A stretch of DNA of 53,430 nucleotides, taken from positions 1 to 53,430 of the IMG/VR virus record IMGVR_UViG_3300042312_000048. One strand, written 5' to 3'. Shown piece by piece: positions 30,528-35,630 of the stretch. The DNA is from a virus. The first letter of the stretch is position 1; each line of letters opens with the position of its first letter. Position numbers and translations under genes: made by a program. Below the pieces are notes generated by a model. The model searched no databases. It was not told the origin of the DNA and worked only from the letters and a program-made list of their open reading frames with translations.

Positions 30528-31085
30528 TTAGATTGTTGTAGAAATTGTCAAAGTTTTAGTTGACGTGGTGTCTGGTGAGTTTGAAGAATATACTTTTAAT
30601 AAATCTGAGTTTAAATTGAAAAAATGGTTGAATTCTATGATTAGCCAGTCTTTATGCTTTTTACTTGTGTAATATAAAAATTGATCAGTAATCCATGTTA
30701 ATTTAGTTTGTACGCAAACAAAACTGCCCTTTCTGTTAAATTTCATAAACAAAATGTTTAAATCATTTTCGTCGCTAACTTCCATCATTTGATCTAACCA
30801 ACTATCTAATACTTTACAATCTCCTGTTAATACAAGATGAAATGGAAAATCAGCGTATGACTTGCATTCTGCGTTAAATCTAGGAAAACTTTGTCCAGGA
30901 ACTATATCACCTTTGAAACTGCGTATCTGTCCCTCATGTAAGATTTGTGTCCTTACTTTATTTTTTCCGCCTACGTATGCACCGCTGCCCGGCGCACGTA
31001 TAAAACTCTCATTGTATTTTTCACTTAAAAATCTAGCGACTTCACGTTCCCAACTAGACCCTTTTTGTTTCTGTGGACTTGGCAT
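30528..31085 (-). CDS. PD-(D/E)XK-type nuclease
   Basis: 185 residues. The PD-(D/E)XK signature is visible: Glu13 in the opening helix (SSWEREVARFLSEKY), Asp60 in FKGDIV and E73-C-K75 in NAECKSY. The G-rich APGSGAYVGGKNK stretch at 31-43 is usual in Holliday-junction resolvase-like or restriction-like members. DNA cleavage, perhaps of recombination intermediates, is likely; the specific substrate is unknown. It is last in the minus-strand operon with gp55, gp47 and gp46, 22 nt after the radical SAM gene. The C-terminal Ser/Thr-rich 20 residues look disordered. Confidence 0.7.
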   Translation of the reverse strand: MPSPQKQKGSSWEREVARFLSEKYNESFIRAPGSGAYVGGKNKVRTQILHEGQIRSFKGDIVPGQSFPRFNAECKSYADFPFHLVLTGDCKVLDSWLDQMMEVSDENDLNILFMKFNRKGSFVCVQTKLTWITDQFLYYTSKKHKDWLIIEFNHFFNLNSDLLKVYSSNSPDTTSTKTLTISTTI

Positions 31086-31107: not shown

Positions 31108-32211
31108 TTAATTCGTTAAAAATCCTACAGCATAGGGTTCATCTACAAGAGAACTGTGACACTTGTGTTCACATTCTACCCATGCCTTTTTTGTATCATC
31201 AAAACTATTAAAGAGGTATTTCCAAACATCATCATTTAAAACTTCTTCTAATGATTTTGTTTTAATACAAACTTTATCTCTGTATACTTGATGAAAACTA
31301 TCTTTCCAATAAATTCTTTTACGCTCAGTTTCGTTATAGTCATAGGGAAAACTTACCCAACTGCATGGGTGTAGTACTCCATCAGCACTTACATATAAAC
31401 CGCGATTACCTATACTACACATAGGAGTTATAAATTTATTATGCTTACTTGACACTTCTTTATATAAATCATAATTTTTTTGCAGGTATGAATCGTTGTT
31501 TTGTTTTCTACCTGTGATATCTTTAAAATATCTTTCGTACCTATGTGTCTTGCTAATGAATTCGGCTCTAGGTTCTAATGGATCAGTATTACCACCGAAC
31601 GACTCGCCATACTTACTACCGAATTTCGTGCTATAAGTTAGTTGTAATCCGTCGCAACCCTTTTCTTTTGCTAGATTATAGATAGTATCTAAATGGTCTT
31701 GATTAAACGAAAATACAATAGTTGCCCAATAAACGAATGCAGGGCTTTCCTTACACATGATTTCCATACCAGTCATTATAGATTCCCAATCATTGTTGAC
31801 TCTGTATAGATCGTTAGATTTTTCATCATACCCATCTATACTAAAGTTTATGGTATCATACTCATTTGATAGTTTTGCGAATTTTCGCCACCAGTCTGGT
31901 TTTTTGTAACTTCCATTTGTTATAGTATAGATATGAATCTTTTCGTTATGACTTTTGATATACTCAATAATTTCAAGGTACTGTGAAGCATAAATCGGAT
32001 CTCCGATATCACCGCACATTGTGATTCTCTTTACTTCATTCTTAAGTAAGTCAGGAGTTAATGTATTCTCAAAAAACTTTAAATCAAGTTCATGATTAAA
32101 CCACGGTACACGATCTGTGTCATTTCTAGGACATCTAGGACATTGTAGCGTACATTTGCCGCTTACTTCAAAATGCCAATGATATAATTGCCATGGATAT
32201 TTTAAGTTCAT
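31108..32211 (-). CDS. Radical SAM enzyme with SPASM/Twitch-like C-terminus
   Basis: 367 residues. The [4Fe-4S]-SAM motif C-x3-C-x2-C is at C20, C24 and C27 (SGKCTLQCPRCPRN), followed by a GDIGDP element near residue 70 in place of GGEP, and NFSIDGYDE near 140. The C-terminal part has C265 and G-x4-C283 (MCSIGNRGLYVSADGVLHPC), C315, and C347-x3-C351 (CEHKC), suggesting auxiliary cluster ligands as in SPASM/Twitch enzymes, many of which modify peptides. The ATG overlaps the SDR stop codon by 4 nt, so the two are likely translationally coupled. The substrate is unknown. It is not a viperin or a ribonucleotide reductase activase by appearance. Confidence 0.85.
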   Translation of the reverse strand: MNLKYPWQLYHWHFEVSGKCTLQCPRCPRNDTDRVPWFNHELDLKFFENTLTPDLLKNEVKRITMCGDIGDPIYASQYLEIIEYIKSHNEKIHIYTITNGSYKKPDWWRKFAKLSNEYDTINFSIDGYDEKSNDLYRVNNDWESIMTGMEIMCKESPAFVYWATIVFSFNQDHLDTIYNLAKEKGCDGLQLTYSTKFGSKYGESFGGNTDPLEPRAEFISKTHRYERYFKDITGRKQNNDSYLQKNYDLYKEVSSKHNKFITPMCSIGNRGLYVSADGVLHPCSWVSFPYDYNETERKRIYWKDSFHQVYRDKVCIKTKSLEEVLNDDVWKYLFNSFDDTKKAWVECEHKCHSSLVDEPYAVGFLTN

Positions 32212-32810
32212 GGACTTATCTCAATAAATTTTATATTGTCATCAAATAAGATTTTGATGATTTGTCCTGCAACATATTTGGCTGTTAGATGTTTATTTTG
32301 ATAAATGTCCTGATATCTTTCAGTATCATTTTTATATCTGTTTTTATTAAAATTTGTTTTAGTAAGACCTACACGAACCTCTAAAGTCCTTATATTAGGA
32401 TACTCTATTTGAAGCATACTATTAAAGTCTGACAATGATTTTTTAGTTAAACTATAAGTTAAATTATTAGGGTAATATCTTTTATTATTAGTGCTAGTAA
32501 TATTAACAATCTTACAATTTGAATTTTGTTTTAATACTTTTTGTGTCAGTAAGACAGGAGATAATAAGTTGGTATTTAAAATAGAAACGACATTATTTGG
32601 ATCATGGTTATCAAAAATTATCTTACCGCCTATATCTGTACCGGCCATGTTAATTAGTATATCAACCTCGGGCATGTCAAATTCTATAACGTCTTGTATA
32701 TTAGATAAGTCTAAAATATCCCGGGTGAGCGGTATAATCTCAAACTTGTCAAGACTATTGGTTAATTCTTTTCCAATACCGCTATTGGCACCCGTTATTG
32801 CTATTTTCAT
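32208..32810 (-). CDS. Short-chain dehydrogenase/reductase
   Basis: 200 residues with a Rossmann fold of the classical SDR type: TGANSGIG at 6-13 (NAD(P)-binding), NMAG at 54-57, the catalytic serine region NITSTNN (Ser106), and Y119-x3-K123 (YSLTK). It is shorter than most SDRs (about 250). The ATG overlaps the gp46 stop by 4 nt and its stop overlaps the radical SAM start by 4 nt, placing it in one translationally coupled chain. It should oxidise or reduce an alcohol or carbonyl using NAD(P); the substrate cannot be read from the sequence. Pairing with the radical SAM enzyme suggests a shared pathway. Confidence 0.88.
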   Translation of the reverse strand: MKIAITGANSGIGKELTNSLDKFEIIPLTRDILDLSNIQDVIEFDMPEVDILINMAGTDIGGKIIFDNHDPNNVVSILNTNLLSPVLLTQKVLKQNSNCKIVNITSTNNKRYYPNNLTYSLTKKSLSDFNSMLQIEYPNIRTLEVRVGLTKTNFNKNRYKNDTERYQDIYQNKHLTAKYVAGQIIKILFDDNIKFIEISP

Positions 32811-34573
32811 AGTACAAGGTCATGTGTCGTATTATATGTTGTAAAGCCATTCTCTTTAACGACCTTGAGAACGCTAGGTACACGACCGGCTAATTCTTCT
32901 CTATGTGAGACTAGCCATACGCTCTTGTTACGATTACGGCTCATATCCTTCAAGATAGCCATGCTATTCTCAACACCAATGCTATCCATACCGCTATCAA
33001 TAAGTTCGTCAATAAACAAGGTATTGATAGGACTGTATAGACTTTCCCATACATCACGGAATGCAAACGACAGTCCTAATATCAATCTGTTACGTTCACC
33101 GCGACTTAAGTTATCAAAGTCTAACTCGCGCCCATACTCAGTTATCTCAACAGATAGATCGTTTAAAAATATTACTTGATGAGGTAATCCGATTCTATCA
33201 AGGTAGTGTGTGAGCCTTGCGTTGAGATAACTGAGATTTTGATCTATGATTTTCTTGCGTACAAAACTGTCTTTGTTTGTTAATAGGTCTAATAAAAACT
33301 TTTGATGTTCAAGAAGTTTAGTATATGCGTTAATACTATTAAAGTCAACAATTTGTAAGGCCTGATTCTCCATCTCACTTATTTGATCTGTATATGGATT
33401 TTCTTCCTTTGATTTTTCATCAATTTTACTAATAAGGCTATCTACTAGGCTACGATGCTGAAATGCTTCTTGCTCTGTATCATAGTAGAGAACTGGCTGT
33501 TTGCCAATCGTTCCTAGTTCTTGTTTGGCTTTGTGGTAGGTTGCCAAACTAATATTAAGTGTTTCAATATTCTTTTCAGTTTCTTTTACAAACTTTTCTT
33601 TTTCTTTTTGTAATTTCTTATGCTGATCGTCATGTATCTCTTGACCGCAAGTATGGCACTTATGTTCTTCAATCGTGGCTAATTCTTTCTTAGCCTTTTT
33701 AAGTGCTTTCTCTTCACGCTCTACATCAGCCTCTTCTCTTGCGATAGCCTTGTCAATATCAGCATGATCTTTCTTTCGCTGATTATATGCAGCCAAATCT
33801 TTATGACCTTGAAGTTCAGCATCAATATCTAACTTCTTAAGTTCATCTAAATCATCTGTTAGTTTCTTTAAATCATCACTGTGCTTGACATCCCAAAGTT
33901 TTGCTCTGCGTTTTAAATTTTCAATTTGTTCTAATATACGCTTGTTTGCTTCTTCAATTGCCTTGTTTTTATATTCTTCTTCTGTGATTTTATCTTTAGT
34001 TTGTTTAATTTGGTCTTTGATTAGTTCTGCTTTTTCGCTGAGTAATGTGATGCCAAGCAACTGTTCAATAATGTTACGTTGTTCATTTGTTTTCATCGCT
34101 AAGAACGGCTCGCTGTATGTGTTTAACGCAATGATTTGCTTGAACATATCAGGAGTCATTCCAATAGCACGTTCAATATGCTCTTGTGTTTCTTTGTTTT
34201 CACCTTGAGCATCGTTGACACATTCTTCTTCTTTATTATCTACATAAAACTTGAGTATGTTCGGCTTGCGACCACGTTCAATTTTATAGTCTACACCATT
34301 ACACTGAAATTCTAATGTAACCATCATGCCTTTAGCATTGGTGCGATTTATTAAGTTATCTTTACGAATGTTGTTGATTGGGGTTCCAAACAACACATAA
34401 CTCAAACCCTGAATAAGAGTAGTCTTACCAGTGCCATTTCTAGCACCATCTCCGCCTAGATCAAGATTCTCTCCTAAAATCAGAGTTAATTCTTTACTAT
34501 CAAAGTTTACAGCCTGGGTAACGGCACCTATTGATAAAAAATTTCGTAATGTTATATTTTTTAGTTGTATCAT
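32807..34573 (-). CDS. 46: Recombination endonuclease subunit, gp46-like (Rad50/SbcC type)
   Basis: 588 residues, the ATPase of the T4 gp46/gp47 complex that resects DNA ends for recombination-dependent replication and host DNA breakdown. Visible: P-loop GARNGTGKTT at 43-52; coiled coil from about 180 to 400 with a zinc-hook C-H-T-C at about 304; ABC signature LSRGERNRLILGL near 488; Walker B LFIDELID near 520; and a switch histidine in LVSHREE near 560. Length is close to T4 gp46 (560). It overlaps gp47 upstream and the SDR downstream by ATGA junctions. Confidence 0.96.
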   Translation of the reverse strand: MIQLKNITLRNFLSIGAVTQAVNFDSKELTLILGENLDLGGDGARNGTGKTTLIQGLSYVLFGTPINNIRKDNLINRTNAKGMMVTLEFQCNGVDYKIERGRKPNILKFYVDNKEEECVNDAQGENKETQEHIERAIGMTPDMFKQIIALNTYSEPFLAMKTNEQRNIIEQLLGITLLSEKAELIKDQIKQTKDKITEEEYKNKAIEEANKRILEQIENLKRRAKLWDVKHSDDLKKLTDDLDELKKLDIDAELQGHKDLAAYNQRKKDHADIDKAIAREEADVEREEKALKKAKKELATIEEHKCHTCGQEIHDDQHKKLQKEKEKFVKETEKNIETLNISLATYHKAKQELGTIGKQPVLYYDTEQEAFQHRSLVDSLISKIDEKSKEENPYTDQISEMENQALQIVDFNSINAYTKLLEHQKFLLDLLTNKDSFVRKKIIDQNLSYLNARLTHYLDRIGLPHQVIFLNDLSVEITEYGRELDFDNLSRGERNRLILGLSFAFRDVWESLYSPINTLFIDELIDSGMDSIGVENSMAILKDMSRNRNKSVWLVSHREELAGRVPSVLKVVKENGFTTYNTTHDLVL

Positions 34574-35586
34574 AGATTTCTATAAATCTCAAGCAACACT
34601 TTAGGATCATAATGTTGACTTTCAATATTGCTTATTTGATCTGTTATTATCTGATCTATGCTTTCAAATTTCAACTCACCTGGAGCAAGATCCACTGCAT
34701 GTTGATCAAGTTTCATAGGTATCAATGCCATTTCGCGCAATTGATGTTTCGGTACTAGTGTTTCTTTGATATAGTTGGCTTCCTCATAACTGATATCAAT
34801 ATCAAGATGTACACGAACACTTCCGCGCGGTAGTAGATATCCATCAGGATTTTCTAATACATCGCTCAATTTATAAACACGGAATGTGGGTTGTTTAGGC
34901 CATGATTTGAATACTGGGTCACAACCCCATTCTAATATCATCATGCCCCTAGCATCATCACCTGCGTCAGCATAGTTGTGCGGGAAAGCATTGCCCATGT
35001 ACCAAATGTTCTTACGTGACTGACGTTTATGAAAATGCCCTGAGTATACTTGCTCAAATCCACATACGTGAGCATCACTTATTTCACCGTGATCCGGCAT
35101 CTCAACCATTGCGTTCATGTAGAAGCGTGGCAGTTCAAGATGCGAAAACAAATATTTTGTTTTGAACTTGAGTAGTTTCTTATATTCATCTCCTACAAGC
35201 CAGGGAGAAATAGTTACATCGCCTTCACTAAACCAATCATTTACGATATGTACATTGGGTAAATGCTTTGCCCACTCTACACTATGAATATCTCTACGGT
35301 CACGATAATAAAGATCGTGATTGCCTGGAATGAAATGCACTGTTTGAAAAGCATCATTTAGTTTTTCTAATGCACGTAGTCCATACTGCATAGTGTGGAT
35401 ATTGATGCTTGCTCTGTGGTGATTGTAATCACCTAAGAAAAAGCAAGTTTCACAACCTTCTTGTTTAGCAGTTTCTATGAACCAATCAACAAAATCGGAA
35501 CAGTCTTGATTATGTTCAAGACTGTTTGACTTCAAGCCGAAATGTATGTCTGTAAAAACTGCTGCCTTTTTAAATAAATTAGACAT
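34570..35586 (-). CDS. 47: Recombination endonuclease subunit, gp47-like (Mre11/SbcD type)
   Basis: 338 residues, equal in length to T4 gp47 (339). Metallophosphoesterase motifs are present: D13-x-H15 (FTDIHFG), GDYNHH near 53, GNHD near 98, and GHFHKRQ near 190. It is the nuclease partner of gp46. The ATG at 35586 is used; one codon upstream a TTG could also serve, but the ATG is more likely. The upstream region has no strong ribosome site. The stop overlaps the gp46 start (ATGA), giving coupled synthesis of the two subunits. Confidence 0.95.
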   Translation of the reverse strand: MSNLFKKAAVFTDIHFGLKSNSLEHNQDCSDFVDWFIETAKQEGCETCFFLGDYNHHRASINIHTMQYGLRALEKLNDAFQTVHFIPGNHDLYYRDRRDIHSVEWAKHLPNVHIVNDWFSEGDVTISPWLVGDEYKKLLKFKTKYLFSHLELPRFYMNAMVEMPDHGEISDAHVCGFEQVYSGHFHKRQSRKNIWYMGNAFPHNYADAGDDARGMMILEWGCDPVFKSWPKQPTFRVYKLSDVLENPDGYLLPRGSVRVHLDIDISYEEANYIKETLVPKHQLREMALIPMKLDQHAVDLAPGELKFESIDQIITDQISNIESQHYDPKVLLEIYRNL

Positions 35587-35630
35587 CAATATAGTTTATC
35601 TAAGTTGTTGATTTACTTAAAGTTTTTTGG

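Follow-up and report, generated by a model that had tools for sequence, protein, structure and literature searches.

A radical SAM enzyme (rSAM) gene and the SDR gene that overlaps it in the window, which is the whole 53,430-nucleotide stretch analysed here (a 53 kb IMG/VR record, likely a genome fragment), very probably form a functional unit. The pair is an accessory cassette, carried by many uncultivated large water phages and by a few relatives of predatory bacteria. Radical SAM enzymes initiate radical chemistry, and SDR-type enzymes normally move hydrogen onto or off a carbonyl; since the two are conserved as a unit, they are most naturally read as sharing a two-enzyme chemistry. We tentatively propose that a carbonyl is introduced by the rSAM into a hydroxylated, probably sugar-like substrate and then reduced by the SDR, by analogy with the AprD4/AprD3 enzymes.

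Four minus-strand genes follow one another in the order gp47, gp46, SDR and rSAM, with the late sigma factor gene gp55 as upstream neighbour of the run (Table 1). Exactly 4 nt were shared at each of the three junctions, confirming the overlaps reported in a preliminary description of this DNA, and the residues described there as intact were indeed both intact and conserved: the cluster-binding cysteines (C20/C24/C27) in the rSAM, and S106, Y119 and K123 in the SDR, as was the TG(x)3GxG motif of the latter. The nearest counterparts of the capsid protein encoded in the window, at 65-67% identity, were those of jumbo phages such as Vibrio phage 2.275.O and Pseudomonas phage PA5oct. The SDR gene was AT-rich (28.5% GC vs 37.9% across the window), a composition that would suit recently acquired cargo.

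Table 1. Genes and motifs of the rSAM/SDR locus, in window coordinates.
Feature	Position	Strand	Evidence or remark
gp47, SbcD-like nuclease subunit	34570..35589	-	phrog_100, E 2e-60; ATGA overlap with gp46
gp46, SbcC-like recombination subunit	32807..34573	-	phrog_77, E 1e-104; upstream of SDR, ATGA overlap
Short classical SDR, 200 aa	32208..32810	-	PF00106, E 4e-19, 69 bits vs cut-off 26.6
SDR NAD(P)-binding motif TGANSGIG	32772..32795	-	T6, G7, S10, G11 and G13 invariant
SDR catalytic S106 ... Y119-x3-K123	32442..32495	-	invariant in 19 phage SDRs
SDR/rSAM stop/start overlap, 4 nt	32208..32211	-	NTGA overlap in 47/49 non-identical phage pairs
rSAM, 367 aa, C-terminal Twitch-like auxiliary-cluster motif	31108..32211	-	PF04055, E 2e-11, 44.8 bits vs cut-off 29.5
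rSAM cluster motif C20-x3-C24-x2-C27 (CTLQCPRC)	32131..32154	-	cysteines invariant, 18-sequence alignment A1
rSAM auxiliary motif, first half C265-x12-G278-x4-C283	31363..31419	-	C265 and C283 invariant, G278 nearly (A1)
rSAM auxiliary motif, second half C347-x3-C351	31159..31173	-	invariant in A1
PDDEXK endonuclease/resolvase-like, downstream flank	30528..31085	-	PF24608, E 1.7e-23; 22 nt past rSAM stop

Viral genomes were scanned with the rSAM as query (58 loci) and, separately, with an SDR alignment (70 loci), the latter being used because a single SDR query recovered only a near-identical contig. Once loci identical in sequence around the junction had been removed, 49 non-identical phage pairs were counted, and the same pairing was recovered from the two independent searches; the SDR genes of L018 and L042, as well as the full-length rSAM of L058, were established by tblastn and reading frames. 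Two phage loci were unpaired: L231, with an SDR without rSAM, is the sole exception that contig ends do not account for, and the sequence of L040 ends 113 nt upstream. Both genes were under purifying selection (dN/dS 0.04-0.17 where computable, some comparisons being saturated). The rSAM of L038 was 62-71% identical to the window clade, yet its SDR grouped with another clade, indicating that the pairing outlasts the exchange of a partner; in L010 an ordinary rSAM lies next to an unusually diverged SDR. No conserved small ORF or third gene was found to accompany the pair, the inserted cassette consisting of the two genes only.

Related rSAM genes were also present in seven of 369 Bdellovibrionota genomes (8 copies). 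A diverged SDR adjoined six of these copies (L062, L063, L064, L075, L077 and L080), with both gene orders represented and one SDR on the opposite strand; none was found beside copies L061 and L078. Met or Trp takes the place of the catalytic Tyr in four of the six bacterial SDR partners, so that the conserved role of the SDR may be something other than classical carbonyl reduction.

The accessory nature of the cassette follows from its distribution, as it was present in only two of 71 gp46 loci (those with at least 2 kb of downstream sequence among the best 80 by similarity), is missing from empty sites in relatives and occupies a gp33/gp59-gp32 site elsewhere. In L093, L095 and L148 (gp46 83-87% identical) gp46 runs directly into the PDDEXK gene, and in L094, L097 and L100 a different rSAM without SDR is found at the post-gp46 site. 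The pair sits between gp33 and gp59-gp32 in L206, L212 and L218, and at other locations in L038 and L058; it therefore has at least two insertion sites, gp47-gp46 being one of them. The slots of relatives also hold genes for an N-terminal-Twitch rSAM, a B12-type rSAM, an AMP-ligase, an epimerase, and SGNH-like and sulfotransferase-like proteins. The preliminary description had placed a two-step chemistry within the recombination operon: the conserved two-enzyme unit was borne out, its co-occurrence extending to the 49 phage pairs, and the tie to recombination was not, the recombination context being inconstant. Given that the pair was found in just 2 of the 71 close gp46 loci, we discarded the idea that it plays a special part in recombination.

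The rSAM belongs to the radical SAM superfamily, as indicated by the CxxxCxxC motif, a PF04055 match above the cut-off and the predicted core fold; C66 was likewise invariant in the 18-sequence alignment. A SPASM domain (PF13186) is a seven-cysteine motif that binds two auxiliary clusters. The rSAM gave no PF13186 match and has four, not seven, conserved C-terminal cysteines, and SPASM membership was rejected. Its conserved CX12GX4C...CX3C arrangement agrees with the Twitch motif, a truncated SPASM motif given as CX9-15GX4C plus further cysteines (PMC6231123). The auxiliary domain is Twitch-like by its motif, with one putative auxiliary Fe-S cluster, so that only the second half of the earlier SPASM/Twitch assignment was retained. 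In the family-model search the rSAM matched neither the AprD4 diol-dehydratase model NF033070 nor NF033640, a model with Twitch N-terminal to the core; the latter was matched instead by a cargo rSAM in relatives (378 bits). The AlphaFold model (pLDDT 86.6) retrieved the general rSAM fold only, with anSME as the top match and viperin, DesII, BlsE and MoaA also among the matches. None of the characterised enzymes is close to the rSAM (best PDB profile E 2e-5; best TM ~0.5).

The SDR is a classical one, with TGxxxGxG and the Ser-Tyr-Lys residues invariant in 19 phage SDRs and PF00106 matched above its cut-off, and no NCBIfam model was matched by it above the respective cut-off. Its AlphaFold model (pLDDT 92.7) was most similar to the classical SDRs 1xg5, 3rku and 3asv (TM 0.84-0.85, normalised by query). 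The phage protein shares fold and catalytic residues with classical SDRs (serine dehydrogenase-like), but at 200 aa it is about 50 residues shorter than is typical. Structure prediction, one of the checks suggested in the preliminary description, gave a general fold for the rSAM and a classical one for the SDR; a pattern of homologues occurring solely as single genes in random contexts, or a close characterised host enzyme, either of which had been named there as counting against the idea, was looked for and did not emerge.

According to the chemistry that we propose, the two enzymes would act in sequence on one small hydroxylated, probably sugar-like substrate. A 5'-deoxyadenosyl radical generated by the rSAM would abstract a hydrogen, after which either the second electron would pass to the auxiliary cluster (dehydrogenation) or an adjacent hydroxyl would be lost (dehydration), a carbonyl resulting in both cases; the SDR would then reduce this carbonyl with NAD(P)H, yielding an epimer or a deoxy compound. 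In the course of infection, the phage might employ this chemistry to modify a metabolite, or a glycan of the host surface or the virion. The order of carbonyl formation and reduction is suggested by analogy with AprD4/AprD3, an rSAM with an NADPH-dependent reductase partner described for paromamine deoxygenation in the apramycin pathway (PMC5461906), and with BtrN, a Twitch dehydrogenase whose auxiliary cluster is described as fully ligated (PMC6231123). AprD4/AprD3 resembles the pair in joining an rSAM to a reductase on a sugar-like substrate (PMC5461906), but the window rSAM lacks the NF033070 match, and its substrate and reaction are putative. The Twitch dehydrogenases BtrN and SpeY are alike in their four auxiliary cysteines and C-terminal Twitch-like layout, and SpeY was among the fold matches; however, the similarity to SpeY was low (TM 0.32-0.38), and no paired SDR is mentioned for either enzyme in the parts of the sources drawn on here.

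A sugar-like substrate is favoured by the cargo neighbours and by the gene clusters around distant relatives of the rSAM in phages CP220 and Mosig, where these relatives sit with amidinotransferase, carbamoyltransferase, amino-arabinose-type aminotransferase and nucleotide-sugar transferase genes. The CP220 and Mosig enzymes differ in being distant (28-30% identity over about half the protein), and the matched rSAMs have no annotated adjoining SDR. Points against the proposed chemistry are that no characterised rSAM is close, that the diol-dehydratase model was not matched, that the pair has no adjoining sugar gene in the window, L063 and L064, and that the L231 SDR stands alone.

It is a lesser possibility that the SDR and the rSAM make or salvage a cofactor, a lipid or another non-sugar host metabolite. 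An S-adenosylhomocysteine hydrolase gene is located two genes past the pair in L038, L063 likewise has one in the vicinity of its pair, and L036 has nucleoside-phosphorylase-like and phosphoribosyltransferase genes; such neighbours vary, however, and would serve any SAM enzyme by recycling SAM by-products in general, and recurring pathway genes were absent.

It is unlikely that the target of the pair during replication is a nucleotide or base in the phage DNA, or a nucleotide pool. Both common insertion sites do lie among replication and recombination genes (gp47-gp46 and gp33-gp59-gp32), and the top PDB profile matches of the rSAM were viperin-like nucleotide enzymes. These sites are nonetheless general cargo slots, open to epimerase, AMP-ligase and other rSAM genes; the prokaryotic viperin model NF038283 was not matched in the family-model search, the PDB search giving weak core similarity only; a TGT-family gene was absent from 18 related, often fragmentary records; and the pair also occurs in bacterial chromosomes next to unrelated genes.

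We also doubt that a peptide or protein is modified, either in a RiPP-like maturation or as a host or virion protein. In the family-model search the rSAM weakly resembled MftC and other rSAM enzymes that modify peptides, the peptide-related anSME leads its fold matches, and RiPP pathways employ some SDRs, such as ElxO, which was among the PDB matches of the SDR. The cluster motif begins at residue 20, however, where an N-terminal peptide-recognition domain would not fit, and the cassette has two genes without a conserved small ORF alongside; since there is no space for such a domain and no third gene with the pair, the RiPP-type peptide raised in the preliminary description is disfavoured.

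The pair could instead be a previously unknown system that large phages share with relatives of predatory bacteria. Its product would be a modification unseen in phages, and the SDR, whose catalytic Tyr is replaced in most of the bacterial copies, would be a non-classical partner; this too seems improbable. That two functionally unrelated genes simply hitch-hike in a cargo slot is very hard to sustain. Many different genes do occupy the slot, and in 24 loci the family is represented solely by an orphan-type rSAM that has no SDR, but the 49 pairs show almost no breakage (lone-gene locus L231 only, L040 being truncated), and the pairing is kept in two or more phage contexts as well as in bacteria, in either gene order, even where the SDR was exchanged.

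Phages with many rSAM genes are already known. Campylobacter phage CP220 has 11 (PMC2853527), one T4-like environmental genome has 12 together with other Fe-S-related genes (PMC5332604), and pelagimyophages carry rSAM cassettes (PMC7029224); CP220/CPt10 and the T4-like environmental phages resemble the carriers of the pair in being large phages with many exchangeable rSAM genes. No published description of the rSAM/SDR pair itself was found in the portions consulted of open-licence papers on phage rSAM genes, SDRs and gp46/gp47, an absence that is no proof but agrees with the earlier suggestion of an undescribed system. Within the known hoarding of rSAM genes by large phages, the pair is the smallest repeated unit of such kind seen here: it consists of two genes, occupies at least two insertion sites, has a counterpart in bacteria and can be compared with an empty site. 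A direct test is possible because reconstituting the chemistry may take no more than the two proteins, and the role of the pair outside infection may become apparent from the bacterial copies.

Several further observations were made on the surroundings of the cassette. The nuclease gene that follows it is of the PDDEXK type in some phages, as in the window, and GIY-YIG-like by eye in others (L036 9108-9536), as if one had replaced the other. The nucleoside-phosphorylase-like and phosphoribosyltransferase genes of L036 (9946-11005), two genes downstream of the pair and on the other strand, possibly serve 5'-deoxyadenosine recycling. A 509-aa protein encoded in L210 (811-2340) has a DSGGFQ motif as in tRNA-guanine transglycosylases; a TGT/DpdA link was dropped, as this protein had no Pfam or PHROG match and PF01702 was absent from the 18 related records, many of which are fragments. 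A 349 kb relative (the L042 record) contained 15 PF04055 matches, an IscU gene (NifU_N, 183 bits) beside an IscA-type gene, and a second IscA-type gene (e.g. L089 4494-5226 and L090 4374-4718), a load of Fe-S genes that agrees with the Fe-S-rich T4-like genomes described in PMC5332604. The same relative has a cargo island (L084 2404-16831) in which several rSAM genes are clustered with a carbamoyltransferase gene (Pfam) and with genes of epimerase-like and SGNH-like type.
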